A stretch of DNA of 34,351 bases, taken from NCBI GenBank assembly GCA_021106765.1, contig JAIOTO010000057.1, positions 1-34,351 on the forward strand, in the 5' to 3' direction. The DNA is from Methanosarcinaceae archaeon (lineage in GTDB: Archaea; Halobacteriota; Methanosarcinia; Methanosarcinales; Methanosarcinaceae). Position 1 is the first letter of the stretch. Every line of letters starts with the position of its first letter. Under the pieces are notes generated by a model that had not been told where the DNA came from, did not search any database, and was given only the letters and a program-made list of their open reading frames with translations. The translations under genes and the position numbers were made by a program. Positions 8,800-14,087 of this stretch are shown here, piece by piece.

Positions 8800-8920
8800 T
8801 ATTCGGCGACCCTATGTTGCGGTTGCTAATGTTGTCGTTGCTGCTGTTTGTATTGTAACCAGTATTGTGATCTGTGTCAATATGGTCGGGATGGGGACAA
8901 GTTATATATATCTAATTTTA

Positions 8921-8946
8921 CCATTTTTAATAATGATTAAAAATGG
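8921..8946. promoter_or_regulatory. Palindromic operator 1, upstream of the GbsR/MarR-like regulator
   Basis: Perfect 11-bp arms CCATTTTTAAT (8921-8931) and ATTAAAAATGG (8936-8946) flank AATG. A TATA box (GTTATATATA, 8901-8910) lies just upstream, so the site covers the expected transcription start and ends 12 nt before the GTG start codon. The inner 20 bp recur before the exporter gene (9506-9525), differing only in one spacer base. This implies a shared regulator, most simply the product of the adjacent gene. Confidence 0.75.
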
Positions 8947-8958
8947 AGTTGGGGAATT

Positions 8959-9462
8959 GTGAACGATACTGAGATGGAAATTATCAAGGTTGGAGTGGAG
9001 GTGTACAAGGGATATGGCATGGATGACCTGTCTGCCAACATACTGTCCCTTCTTTATTTTGAACCGGGTGAACTGACCATGGAAGAACTTGCGGAATTCA
9101 CCGGATATAGCCTTGCTTCCATAAGTCTGAAGATGAAATGGCTTGAAAGTTTTTGGGGAGTGCATAGACGAAAAAAAGCCGGATCACGGAAGATATATTT
9201 TCGCATGGGGAATGACTATCTGGACTGTCTGGAGGAAACCATGCGGAGGGCTTATGAGATGGAATCACATCTCATAAAAAGTTTAATGCCAGAACTGATC
9301 CGGAAATATAGGGGGCAAGCTACCTCAGAATCCCAGTTGGAACGCCTTCGCATTGCTGAGAAATACTGCCAGCAGATCGATGATGCTGGCAGGGTACTCG
9401 AATTATTCTATGAAAAGATCGATGAGATCAGGTCTGAACAAAAAGACAACGGGATTGATTGA
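8959..9462 (+). CDS. GbsR/MarR-like winged-helix transcriptional regulator
   Basis: A 167-residue DNA-binding protein, most like the GbsR branch of the MarR superfamily. Residues about 20-85 form a winged helix: the helix pair MEELAEFTGYSLASISLKMK, then WLESFWGVHRRKKAGSRKIY as recognition helix and wing. A C-terminal helical part (about residues 95-167) should mediate dimerisation. The start is GTG at 8959; no in-frame ATG is nearby. It sits directly upstream of an RND exporter, and both genes are preceded by the same palindrome. Autoregulation and control of the exporter follow as the natural inference. In osmoadapting microbes GbsR proteins respond to choline or osmotic signals; the ligand here is unknown. 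Confidence 0.85.
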   Translation: MNDTEMEIIKVGVEVYKGYGMDDLSANILSLLYFEPGELTMEELAEFTGYSLASISLKMKWLESFWGVHRRKKAGSRKIYFRMGNDYLDCLEETMRRAYEMESHLIKSLMPELIRKYRGQATSESQLERLRIAEKYCQQIDDAGRVLELFYEKIDEIRSEQKDNGID

Positions 9463-9505
9463 GGTCGGATGTCGAAAAGTATATATGTATTGAATATATT
9501 TACTA

Positions 9506-9525
9506 TTTTTAATAATCATTAAAAA
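9506..9525. promoter_or_regulatory. Palindromic operator 2, upstream of the RND exporter
   Basis: Arms TTTTTAAT (9506-9513) and ATTAAAAA (9518-9525) flank AATC. This is the same 8-bp core as operator 1. A BRE/TATA pair (CGAAAA then GTATATATGT, 9473-9488) lies about 20-26 nt upstream, so the site again sits at the probable transcription start. The exporter start codon is 43 nt further on. Confidence 0.75.
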
Positions 9526-9568
9526 CACAGGATATTCATAACTTACTTCCAACTAATTCTCTGAGGAG

Positions 9569-11899
9569 ATGGTGGCAATAAAGAATACTTTTGAAAAAAT
9601 AGGGAAGTTCATCGAAGATAATCCCGTCCCTCTCCTTATTCTTTCCATACTCCTGATCTTCATCGCATTCGAAGGAGCTGCGATGATCACGATGGCCTCT
9701 GATACGGATACCTTTGTTAATAAAGATTCAAAGCTGTATCAGGATTATGATCACCTTTATCTCAACATGTTCTACACACAATCCATCGTTGTAATGATCG
9801 AGGACGGTGATGTCACAAACCCCGAACTTGTGCAGGCGATAGATCGGTTTGAGCAACTGGTAGCCTCTGTAGATGGTGTTGTGGAAACCAATAGTCTGGC
9901 CTCCGTTCTGAAGCAGACGAACTATGATGAGAATAGTAAACGTGTGTTACCGTCCAATGAGAAGGACATCGAACAACTTCTTTCCATATATACACCGAAA
10001 TCAGTTGTTCCTGATGAAACCCACACTTTTATTTATATTGATGTAAGCGGTGATGTAAATTATGATAAACTCAGAGAGATCCTTCGCATTGTCGATGAGT
10101 CAGTGATATTTGCGGAATTCCCTGTAGGTTACAATGTGATCGTTACAGGCGATGCTGATTTCAATATTGAGATGGAAGATGAGATGAATGCCAGCATGTC
10201 ACTGTTGTTGCTGATCTCCATCGGTCTCATGCTTATTGTCCTTTATCTAGTATTCCGACATGTAAGATGGCGTTTGCTCCCGCTTGGTGTCGTTATGTTC
10301 GGAGTGATCTACACATTCGGAGCAATGGGTTTTCTGGATATACCCATGACCATGGTATCAATGTCAGCATTCCCCATTCTTATTGGTCTGGGAATCGATT
10401 ATGCCATCCAGTTCCATAATCGTATCGAAGAGGAACTTGAGAAAGGTGAATCAGAAGCTGAGGCAGTGATCGAAACTGTTAAACACACAGGACCTGCTGT
10501 TCTTATTGCTGTTCTTATTACTTCAATGGGTTTTGTTTCACTGTTCAAATCCAGTGTTCCTATGATACGTGATTTTGGTAAACTTCTTATGATCGGGGTT
10601 GCAATGTGCTTCCTTGCTTCTTTATTTGTGGGTGTTACCAGTATTTATCTCTTTGACACCCTGAGTAAAAATACGATCATTTGCAAACTCACATCATTCA
10701 TTCCAAAGAAAAAAGAAGCGAATGAGAAAGATCCTTCTGACAGGTTTGAAACCTTCCTGAAAAATTCCACACGATTCACACTCAGGCATCCCATACCGGT
10801 TATTTTAATTGCAGGTTTATTCTGTGTTGCCGGTATCTATACGGATTCAATGATCCCCATAGAGGCAGATACGAAAACGTTTGTTCCTATGGATATGGAT
10901 GCTTTGATCGAATGGGAGCATATGGGTCAAGTGATGGAAGGTGGGACCACTCACGTGGATCTCATCATTAAGGTAGAGGATGCATCGGATCCGGCTGTGA
11001 TACAATGGATGGATGAATTTGGTGAACATGAAGTCGAACACCGTGCCAATATTTACGGCACGGAAGGAATGCATACCATCTTACGATCATACAATGATGG
11101 TGTATTACCAACCAATAAAGGCGAAATTGAATCCCTTTATGCCACGATACCAGATGCACATAAAAGATGGTATTTGCATGACAACAGCTTTCTCCTGATG
11201 CAGATGGATACGGGAAATGCCTGGGCCGAACTTGGTCTTGAAGGTATGGATGAGCTGGTATCTGTTATCAAAAAAGACATTTTCTGGATGCCACCACCTC
11301 CGGGTGTAGCTGTTACTGTCACCGGTGATATTGTTGTAATGACTGCACTGATAGATGCATTGACATCCGGACGTGTGATGATGACCATGACAGGATTGTT
11401 CATGGTCCTGGGAGGTTTGCTTCTCATTTATCGTGACTGGCTCAAAGCGCTTGTACCGGTCGCAACCATGTTTGCAGTTATCGGTTGGGCAGGCGGGGTC
11501 ATGTATTTCACAGGAGTGCCATACACTCCCATGACCGCTACCCTGGGTGCACTCATCCTTGGGGTTGGCTCTGAATATGCTGTCCTCATGATGGAACGCT
11601 ACTTTGAAGAGAAAGATAAAGGGGCCACTCCTCACGAGGCAATGGTAATAGCAAGTGGCAAGATCGGAAAAGCCATTATCGCATCGGGACTAACAACATT
11701 GTTTGGTTTCTCTGCCCTGATCGCCTCACCATTTGGTATAAACAGCAATTTTGGTCTTGTAACTGTTATCATGGTTGCGCTGGCACTCTTTGCCACTTTT
11801 GTAGTTTTCCCGCCCCTGCTAGTCAATCTTGATATATGGCGTGAAAAAAGGAAGGGAATATCAATCCCATCCGGACAGGAGGTAATATCCTATGAATAA
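9569..11899 (+). CDS. RND-superfamily exporter (HAE3/MMPL-like)
   Basis: A 776-residue proton-driven exporter with the RND two-fold repeat: one membrane helix (residues about 20-40), a large extracytoplasmic loop, a five-helix bundle (about 207-365), then the same pattern again. The proton-relay motif of the first half is GLGIDYAIQFHNR with Asp277; the second half has GVGSEYAVLMMERY, with Glu669 at the equivalent place. Length and the absence of bacterial-type docking domains fit the archaeal/bacterial HAE3 group rather than AcrB. GAGGAG (9563-9568) abuts the ATG at 9569 and is only 3 nt from the following GTG at 9572, so the true start may be either. Its 3' end overlaps the next gene by 8 nt, giving a coupled operon with two surface proteins. 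Likely cargo is hydrophobic (lipids, pigments, drugs), but none is shown. Confidence 0.9.
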   Translation: MVAIKNTFEKIGKFIEDNPVPLLILSILLIFIAFEGAAMITMASDTDTFVNKDSKLYQDYDHLYLNMFYTQSIVVMIEDGDVTNPELVQAIDRFEQLVASVDGVVETNSLASVLKQTNYDENSKRVLPSNEKDIEQLLSIYTPKSVVPDETHTFIYIDVSGDVNYDKLREILRIVDESVIFAEFPVGYNVIVTGDADFNIEMEDEMNASMSLLLLISIGLMLIVLYLVFRHVRWRLLPLGVVMFGVIYTFGAMGFLDIPMTMVSMSAFPILIGLGIDYAIQFHNRIEEELEKGESEAEAVIETVKHTGPAVLIAVLITSMGFVSLFKSSVPMIRDFGKLLMIGVAMCFLASLFVGVTSIYLFDTLSKNTIICKLTSFIPKKKEANEKDPSDRFETFLKNSTRFTLRHPIPVILIAGLFCVAGIYTDSMIPIEADTKTFVPMDMDALIEWEHMGQVMEGGTTHVDLIIKVEDASDPAVIQWMDEFGEHEVEHRANIYGTEGMHTILRSYNDGVLPTNKGEIESLYATIPDAHKRWYLHDNSFLLMQMDTGNAWAELGLEGMDELVSVIKKDIFWMPPPPGVAVTVTGDIVVMTALIDALTSGRVMMTMTGLFMVLGGLLLIYRDWLKALVPVATMFAVIGWAGGVMYFTGVPYTPMTATLGALILGVGSEYAVLMMERYFEEKDKGATPHEAMVIASGKIGKAIIASGLTTLFGFSALIASPFGINSNFGLVTVIMVALALFATFVVFPPLLVNLDIWREKRKGISIPSGQEVISYE

Positions 11900-12956
11900 T
11901 TTCCTGAAAAAATATCCCTCAATTATTGTGATCGGCCTGATTGTGCTTTTATGCATAGCTCCTACTGTCCAGTCCAAGGAACTCATCCCACCAGTTCATG
12001 AATTCTCTACCAACTATTACGATGCCTACGGAGAACCAGACCTGTACGTTTCTGTCATTGGTGATGTTGAACTTGAACGCGGCGAAGAACATTTGCTCAA
12101 GATCGTTCTATCCAACAGGGGTGTTCTGCACGGTGTGAAATATGATACACGCATTGGTACGGATGAAATGGATCATGAAATATCATTGCAGGAGCTTGAA
12201 TATGAAAAGTACAGGACAACTGCTATTGGTATAAAAGCAGAACTCAGATCTACATCAGATCTCATAGAAATATATCCCGAGACCAGTATCCAAACTCTGG
12301 ATGAATTGATGCCAGGAGTACTTCCCGATGAACCGTTCGTGTTCACTCTTAAGATCTCGGAAAATGCTCCTGCAGGTGAATATACCCTTCTTTTCCCACT
12401 GGAATACCAGTATCAGAATGAAGTGGAGATGTCTGATGGAAGTACGGTCAGGTTGGGTCTTCCCGAATTGGATCATACGACCTATTACAAGAATACCAAC
12501 CAGGTCCTCACAATTCCGATTTACATCAAACCCACGGTCGTATTTGAAATTGTGGATGTGGATGGTGAATTGACTGCAGGTTCTACGTCTACTGTGAATG
12601 TAACCTATGCAAATATAGGTGAACTGCCGGCCAATAATGCTGTGGCCAGGCTTGTTGTGATGAAGCCCCTTTCTTCTTCAAGAAGTGAACTATCTCTGGG
12701 AACAATATATCCCGGAGATACGAAGACGATTTCCTTTGAGATTAGTGCTGATGGTAATGCAATTCCCAAAGAGTATGCAATATCCAGCGAGATCAAATAC
12801 ATTGATGATGAGGATGAAACCAGTCTATCGGATGCATTGCTTGTACGAATGCCTCTTCAGAAGTCTGAAGACACGATCCCCCTCGGGACATTTATGATCG
12901 CTGGTGTTTTTCTGATATTATTATACATGTTTGGTAAATATGCACGAAAACGGTGA
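11892..12956 (+). CDS. Membrane-anchored COG1361-type surface protein, exporter partner 1
   Basis: A 354-residue secreted protein with an N-terminal signal peptide (hydrophobic core about residues 12-24, cleavage probably after VQS), a beta-rich extracytoplasmic body and a C-terminal membrane helix followed by KYARKR. Two Ig/CARDB-like segments are suggested: residues about 45-195, with NRGVLHG and TTAIGIKAELRS, and about 215-325, with YANIGELPANNAVARLV. This matches the COG1361 'S-layer domain' family. The ATG at 11892 overlaps the exporter stop (TAA 11897-11899) and has AGGAGGT 8 nt upstream, indicating translational coupling. With its paralogue downstream it is a plausible external adaptor of the RND pump; this is inferred from operon context only. 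Confidence 0.85.
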   Translation: MNNFLKKYPSIIVIGLIVLLCIAPTVQSKELIPPVHEFSTNYYDAYGEPDLYVSVIGDVELERGEEHLLKIVLSNRGVLHGVKYDTRIGTDEMDHEISLQELEYEKYRTTAIGIKAELRSTSDLIEIYPETSIQTLDELMPGVLPDEPFVFTLKISENAPAGEYTLLFPLEYQYQNEVEMSDGSTVRLGLPELDHTTYYKNTNQVLTIPIYIKPTVVFEIVDVDGELTAGSTSTVNVTYANIGELPANNAVARLVVMKPLSSSRSELSLGTIYPGDTKTISFEISADGNAIPKEYAISSEIKYIDDEDETSLSDALLVRMPLQKSEDTIPLGTFMIAGVFLILLYMFGKYARKR

Positions 12957-12983
12957 TGAAACTGTGATATTTAAGGGAGGTAA

Positions 12984-14087
12984 ATGATGCGAACCTTACA
13001 AAATTATATGAAACAAATTACCATTACATTATTGGTTCTGGCTTTGCTTTTTGTAATGCCAGCCCATGCCGGATTTGAGGCGATAAACGAAGGTTTACCG
13101 GATCATTTCAGTTTCGATGAGAATTATTATACTGTTTATGGCGGCCCTGATATCTCAGCAACTGTGATAGGGGACTGCGAGTTTTCACGTGGTGATAGTG
13201 TCACCCTGAATATCGACCTGATGAACAAGGGAATGATCTCCGGTTTCCGCAGCGATACAGATGATGATCCTGTCAGTGAGCTGGACCAGAAACTACAGCA
13301 GACGGAAATGTCCTATGAGTCCCAGCGCACTACGGCTATTGGTATCGTTGCTGTGTTAACGTCCCTTGATCCGGACGTGAAGGTCAAGTCCGGTCCACAA
13401 GAAGCAGGTACTCTGGCATCAGGCGAGCAGATAGAATATCCCATCCAATTTGATATAGATATATCAAAGAATGCGGATGCAGGGGAGTATCCTCTTGTAC
13501 TGAATATGTACTATGGTTACCAGAAGAACGTCCAGATCAACGGTGACAATGAGACCGATCTGGGTATTACGAACATGGAAGTGGGACTGTGGTACGATGT
13601 AGGCACCCAGAACACCACTTTTCCTCTTCATGTCGAGGAGGAGGCAGAGTTCGCTGTTACAAATGTGAGCGGGGAGCTGGTCCCTAACAATGAGGGCATG
13701 TTGTATGTTACCTATACCAATGTGGGCGAGTTGCTTGCTGAGGATGCCACTGTCCGGATCAGTGCTGCTGATCCATTCAGTACCACCGATGATCAGGCAT
13801 ATCTGGGTGATCTGGCTCCGGGTGAGAATGCAGTCGCCATCTTCAAACTGAAAGTGGACGAACTTGCTGTTCCCAAGATGTACGCCATCAATAGTGAGAT
13901 CAAGTATGAGGATACTAACGGGCATGACCAGATATCGGATTCCGTGAAGATCACCACCGAGGTGCTGCCTTCCGCATCGTCATCCGGAAGCGGAGGGTAC
14001 ACATGGATCGCTGTGGGCATTGTACTGGTGGCCTTTATGGGTTTCGTAGTGTACAGAAAAATATCTGGCAAAAAAAGGGAAAGCTGA
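12984..14087 (+). CDS. Membrane-anchored COG1361-type surface protein, exporter partner 2
   Basis: A 367-residue paralogue of the preceding protein with the same plan: signal peptide (cleavage probably after AHA), beta-rich body, a serine/glycine linker (SASSSGSGG), a C-terminal membrane helix and a basic tail. Shared landmarks are the early YxxYG-PD segment, SYESQRTTAIGI versus KYRTTAIGI, NADAGEY versus NAPAGEY, YTNVGELLAEDATVR versus YANIGELPANNAVAR, and VPKMYAINSEIKYED versus IPKEYAISSEIKYID. A tandem duplication is clear. GGGAGGT (12975-12981) better suits the second ATG at 12987. The gap from the first paralogue is 27 bp, so it belongs to the same operon. Its third positions look more G/C-rich than those of the exporter. 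A terminator follows immediately. Confidence 0.85.
   Translation: MMRTLQNYMKQITITLLVLALLFVMPAHAGFEAINEGLPDHFSFDENYYTVYGGPDISATVIGDCEFSRGDSVTLNIDLMNKGMISGFRSDTDDDPVSELDQKLQQTEMSYESQRTTAIGIVAVLTSLDPDVKVKSGPQEAGTLASGEQIEYPIQFDIDISKNADAGEYPLVLNMYYGYQKNVQINGDNETDLGITNMEVGLWYDVGTQNTTFPLHVEEEAEFAVTNVSGELVPNNEGMLYVTYTNVGELLAEDATVRISAADPFSTTDDQAYLGDLAPGENAVAIFKLKVDELAVPKMYAINSEIKYEDTNGHDQISDSVKITTEVLPSASSSGSGGYTWIAVGIVLVAFMGFVVYRKISGKKRES

Follow-up and report, generated by a model that had tools for sequence, protein, structure and literature searches.

A putative GbsR-like-regulated HAE3 export operon encoding two anchored Ig-like proteins in a Methanosarcinaceae archaeon

Tripartite RND and MacAB exporters are encoded together with an extracytoplasmic, membrane-anchored partner that is drawn from one protein family, the MFP/HlyD adaptors. 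The HAE3 family of RND pumps (TIGR00921) is described by the pump only. The lipid exporters MmpL3 and HpnN share a common pump layout with it, with short extracytoplasmic loops and acidic-Tyr relay pairs, and have partner proteins of a different kind from those reported below. On the regulatory side, the closest described proteins are the choline-responsive repressors GbsR and CudC, which have a winged-helix architecture. Here, we compare these systems with a locus in which an HAE3 pump is encoded with a GbsR-like regulator and two membrane-anchored proteins, S1 and S2.

The window (the whole stretch of 34 351 nucleotides that was analysed) comes from contig C83 of the genome bin of a methanogenic archaeon, 1.74 Mb in size and 95% complete. 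The initial annotation placed a regulator, an RND pump and two paralogous proteins at positions 8921–14087. Open reading frames and profile matches confirm these four genes, all on the plus strand. The features of the locus are as follows.

8902–8911, plus strand: TATA-like box of the regulator promoter, TTATATATAT, read directly from the sequence
8924–8943, no strand assigned: putative operator 1, palindrome TTTTTAATAATGATTAAAAA, 18 of 20 positions self-complementary, with homologous palindromes near the regulators of relatives
8959–9462, plus strand: GbsR/MarR-like winged-helix regulator, 167 amino acids, GTG start, from the ORF, profiles and relatives
9480–9487, plus strand: TATA-like box of the pump promoter, TATATATG, read directly from the sequence
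9506–9525, no strand assigned: putative operator 2, palindrome TTTTTAATAATCATTAAAAA, inside a promoter that is a homologous copy of the regulator's
9569–11899, plus strand: RND pump of the HAE3 family, 776 amino acids, from TIGR00921, PF03176 and invariant residues
11892–12956, plus strand: S1, signal peptide, β-rich ectodomain and C-terminal transmembrane anchor, 354 amino acids, from the ORF, AlphaFold2 and pump-adjacent orthologs
12984–14087, plus strand: S2, a paralog of S1 with the same architecture, 367 amino acids, from the ORF and AlphaFold2

The pump and S1 genes overlap by 8 nt, with a Shine–Dalgarno-like GGAGG 5′ of S1, and S2 follows S1 after 27 nt with GGGAGGT on its 5′ side. Pump, S1 and S2 are read as one operon; as a correction to the initial annotation, the regulator has a promoter that is separate from that of the pump.

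The pump belongs to the HAE3 family over its full length: it matches positions 8–732 of the 733 in TIGR00921 with 694.8 bits (curated cut-off 351.9) and the MMPL family (PF03176) with 203 bits. Hydropathy points to about 12 transmembrane helices and two extracytoplasmic (porter) loops, one of about 170 residues and the other of about 150. The conserved acidic residues expected of an RND pump appear in the predicted TM4 and TM10, and the acidic-Tyr motifs Asp277-Tyr278 and Glu669-Tyr670 are invariant across 54 aligned pumps. The comparison for such pairs is the proton relay of MmpL3, by analogy with which they suggest a working relay here; Glu669-Tyr670 stands where MmpL3 and HpnN have a second Asp-Tyr pair. 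Named relatives of the pump are found chiefly in Methanosarcinaceae and ANME-2, and the laboratory archaeon Methanosarcina acetivorans also has a TIGR00921 pump. Among proteins of solved structure, SecDF and MmpL transporters are the best relatives of the window's pump, and a profile search finds a sterol-sensing-like segment. Both features would suit a pump for a lipid or another envelope precursor, on the pattern of HpnN and MmpL3, with S1 and S2 as cargo carriers, instead of one that expels toxicants. So would the loops, which appear to be of the short MmpL type and not of the long AcrB type, and a long β-hairpin predicted in the S1 and S2 ectodomains, which could bind a hydrophobe. However, the pump is not found in several relatives, which argues against an essential envelope role, and the regulator family is elsewhere tied to SMR and MacB-type exporters (see below). 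We regard an envelope-building pump as quite improbable.

S1 and S2 are about 32% identical and have a common plan of signal peptide, β-rich ectodomain and C-terminal membrane helix followed by basic residues. The AlphaFold2 models (pLDDT 84.5 for S1 and 83.2 for S2, from 56 and 65 aligned sequences) agree with the signal peptides and anchors assigned in the initial annotation: both have an N-terminal signal helix, and C-terminal transmembrane helices are predicted at residues 331–353 of S1 and 340–361 of S2. Between these, the predicted fold consists of an N-terminal β-domain, with one helix and the long hairpin of two strands of about 20 residues, followed by an Ig-like domain. Matches to the NPCBM_assoc and CARDB families fall just below threshold (24.0 versus 24.4 and 22.0 versus 22.7 bits for S1, 23.8 versus 24.4 bits for S2), and an ABC-linked relative in locus L128 scores above the cut-off with 31.9 bits. 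The Foldseek hits (integrin legs, transglutaminase, RbmA and Fusexin1) are all generic Ig-like sandwiches, with TM-scores normalized by query length below 0.3. No MFP adaptor is present among the listed Foldseek matches and neither Pfam nor NCBIfam gives an RND_mfp or HlyD profile match. Homology of the S proteins to MFP adaptors was rejected on both the predicted Ig-like fold and the profiles. The S-layer families of Pfam are likewise unmatched and the PACE-CTERM S-layer model scores 19.8 bits against a cut-off of 110; the earlier suggestion that cargo is handed to the S-layer finds no supporting evidence.

Co-conservation of the genes in relatives had been named as one of two points on which the initial proposal would stand or fall, and on this point it survives. 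Downstream regions were surveyed at 80 named loci, a paralogous locus on contig C71 of the same genome and the window. Two S-family genes (or a split second one) follow 61 of the 71 pumps with at least 2.6 kb of downstream sequence, one S gene follows two (one of these N-masked) and none follows eight. In the relatives' cassettes the start of S1 commonly overlaps the pump stop codon by 1 or 4 nt. A profile survey of the same loci and 40 further ones finds that 85 of 109 pumps have an S-family gene on their own strand no more than 200 nt away. Among other genes encoding at least 250 residues the figure is 24 of 664, and all 24 are neighbours of pump-linked S genes. In a sample of 40 pumps from other lineages of the phylum, 25 have an adjacent S gene on either side and 15 have none; in 20 of the 25 it lies upstream of the pump, and the pairing has thus survived an inversion of gene order. 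All of these counts are without phylogenetic weighting. An export machine confined to this locus, as first envisaged, is not what they describe: the pairing is phylum-wide, so that in most of the phylum dedicated anchored Ig-like proteins are added to the HAE3 family. We found no description of it in the literature searched, which included few subscription journals. An apparent fusion of pump and S1 in a single ORF (L072), a Rosetta-stone candidate, was rejected as an artefact of a run of N. In one genome two small ArsP_1-like membrane proteins follow pump–S1–S2 (L153:9263–10287). Cassettes of the Methanosarcina type also occur in bins labelled Bacteroidales and Firmicutes (L069 and L070), which are most likely misbinned contigs.

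Mirror-tree correlations are high (r = 0.93 for pump and S1, 0.83 for pump and S2) but are confounded by the species tree, and were replaced by a paralog test in Methanosarcina genomes that carry two cassettes. The pump of locus L071 is 84–87% identical to pumps of the same type in other species and 62% identical to that of the other cassette in its own genome; for S1 the corresponding values are 72–77% and 53%. S1 is thus co-inherited with its pump. The nearest copies of S2 (75–80%) belong to the other cassette type, own genome included. In the genome of the window, S2 is 69% identical to its counterpart on C71 and the pumps are 55% identical. Since S1 and the pump group by cassette type and S2 does not, S1 is most likely pump-specific, and S2 may be read as exchangeable between cassettes. 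The C71 cassette itself (L006:7730–12977, G000:C71) consists of a MarR regulator, the pump, S1′ and S2′; its pump is split by a frameshift near the end, which may reflect either a fault in the assembly or decay of the gene.

Not every pump has an S gene beside it. The two pumps closest to that of the window (L136:6027–8240 and L137:6261–8501; 62–63% identity, grouping support 100/99) stand without adjacent S genes, and their genomes contain another full cassette elsewhere. This counts against a strict dependence of the pump on the S proteins: either these act in trans, or the pump works alone, or the cassette of the window is a mosaic. A second Methanosarcina HAE3 subfamily (L085, L086, L088 and L089) also has no S genes; its neighbours are a permease, an ABC system and regulators of other kinds, among them one of FilR1 type.

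Conversely, 19 S-family loci (L116–L134) lie away from HAE3 pumps, and 13 of them directly adjoin an ABC-2 exporter (ATPase and permease); Pfam checks at four of the 13 covered three ATPases and three permeases (ABC2_membrane_3). At the remaining six, which include the single S genes L117–L120, no exporter lies alongside. In a twentieth locus (L135) a distant, split RND protein is overlapped by 4 nt by a CARDB/NPCBM protein. Some of the genomes behind L116–L135 are near kin, and the counts are not independent. RND_mfp adaptors scoring above the cut-off are absent from all 60 relatives and from the genome of the window; the sub-threshold hits are short matches in long frames. The most interesting result of this analysis is that one family of anchored Ig-like proteins stands beside both RND and ABC exporters, a pattern that we did not find described in the literature searched. 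Together with the absence of RND_mfp it fits an adaptor-like role.

Solo pumps, exporter-free single S genes and the S-layer-like annotation of the S family (the weak PACE-CTERM match) can also be accommodated if S1 and S2 are anchored surface proteins of an envelope-stress regulon, which reinforce or protect the envelope and have only their co-expression in common with an efflux pump that they never contact. Yet the short gene overlaps seen in most lineages imply a tighter coupling than shared regulation needs, and the same holds for the persistence of the pairing under inverted gene order, the linkage of the S family to further exporter classes and the co-inheritance of S1 with its own pump paralog. 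We consider such a regulon unlikely, and prefer an export operon in which S1 and S2 are partners of the pump.

The regulator matches MarR_2/HTH_24 weakly (19.3 bits, below the cut-off). Its closest family is GbsR-type CudC, with 30.8 bits (45.8 for an SMR-linked homolog) against an equivalog cut-off of 218, a score that places it outside the family proper and likely makes it a distant relative of GbsR/CudC. Its neighbours differ as well, being exporters and not genes for choline uptake or conversion. The palindrome TTTTTAATAATSATTAAAAA occurs in two near-perfect copies, at 8924–8943 and 9506–9525, which begin 22 nt (regulator) and 26 nt (pump) past the starts of the TATA-like boxes. In archaea transcription is expected to start about 25 nt downstream of the box, and the palindrome therefore covers both expected start sites. 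The number of matches expected by chance in the window is 0.01, and in the whole 1.74 Mb genome only these two sites are found at up to two mismatches (control matches, 0). The promoters of the regulator and the pump share an alignable stretch of about 60 nt, which indicates that one is a copy of the other. These two palindromes, over the regulator's own promoter and that of the pump, support the description of the locus as self-regulated; we infer that the regulator represses the pump operon and its own gene.

Homologous regulators were found in 18 of the 60 relatives. Those at 42–45% identity lie 38–54 nt behind a gene for a SugE-type SMR exporter of 105–107 amino acids (105 bits for PF00893; 119.6 bits for the SugE model, slightly under its cut-off of 126), and in these eight cases the palindrome is found 5′ of the SMR gene, which precedes the regulator. 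Five of those at about 35% identity adjoin a MacB/FtsX-type ABC exporter and an anchored protein of 408–424 amino acids that contains CARDB-like stretches; four of these five have the palindrome 37–46 nt before the regulator. Over the window and these four cases the distance from palindrome to regulator is −35 to −46. Shuffled-sequence controls give a probability of at most 0.015 in every case but L181. The palindrome thus belongs to this family of regulators, whose members in turn accompany exporters; on these sequence grounds they are probably exporter-linked repressors. The weak kinship with CudC/GbsR and the SMR link offer a lead, and only that, towards cationic amphiphiles as the ligand class. 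The SMR loci (L168:5335–6195 and likewise L169–L175), in which this palindrome stands ahead of the SMR gene, represent an archaeal small-cation exporter with what is likely a dedicated repressor.

The regulators of the HAE3 cassettes vary between MarR, TrmB and GbsR-like types. The regulator of the window was for this reason rejected as a general part of the cassette, and the inducer logic of the window is not transferable to the pump family. In Methanolobus and Methanomethylovorans a TrmB-type regulator is the third cassette gene after S2 (L044:14636–15433, L047:7308–8120 and L050:14709–15524).

On balance we lean towards an inducible export operon made up of a GbsR-like repressor, an HAE3 pump and two adaptor-like partner proteins. 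The repressor would occupy the palindrome over the start sites of the pump operon and its own gene until it senses an inducer, probably some cationic or amphiphilic toxicant. The pump, driven by a proton (or sodium) gradient, would then expel an amphiphile, taken either from within the membrane or from its outer face. S1 and S2 would be type I membrane proteins with their Ig-like ectodomains beside the pump, S1 most likely as the pump-specific partner subunit and S2 as a more exchangeable one. Together they may fill the role that MFP/HlyD adaptors have in two-membrane bacteria, and hold, gate or lead away the cargo in a system with no outer-membrane channel. An archaeal counterpart of RND adaptors, as first proposed, is thus supported by gene linkage to RND and ABC exporters and by the absence of RND_mfp, as an analogy and not as homology: the partner is predicted to be Ig-like and its anchor is C-terminal. 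In these terms the adaptor idea serves well as a working model.

Archaea commonly encode COG1361-type proteins, for which the usual annotation is S-layer family or unknown. We tentatively entertain, at somewhat less than even odds, that C-terminally anchored Ig-like exporter partners (COG1361/NEW3/CARDB) form a general class in one-membrane archaea that serves RND, ABC-2 and MacB-type exporters, as a convergent counterpart of MFP/HlyD. The operator offers a simple handle, with one palindrome and one regulator family across three exporter classes. Proteins usually filed under 'S-layer family' may be working exporter parts. If COG1361-type proteins are exporter subunits, many orphan surface proteins would gain a testable function, and one could ask what purpose an adaptor has where no outer membrane needs to be crossed.
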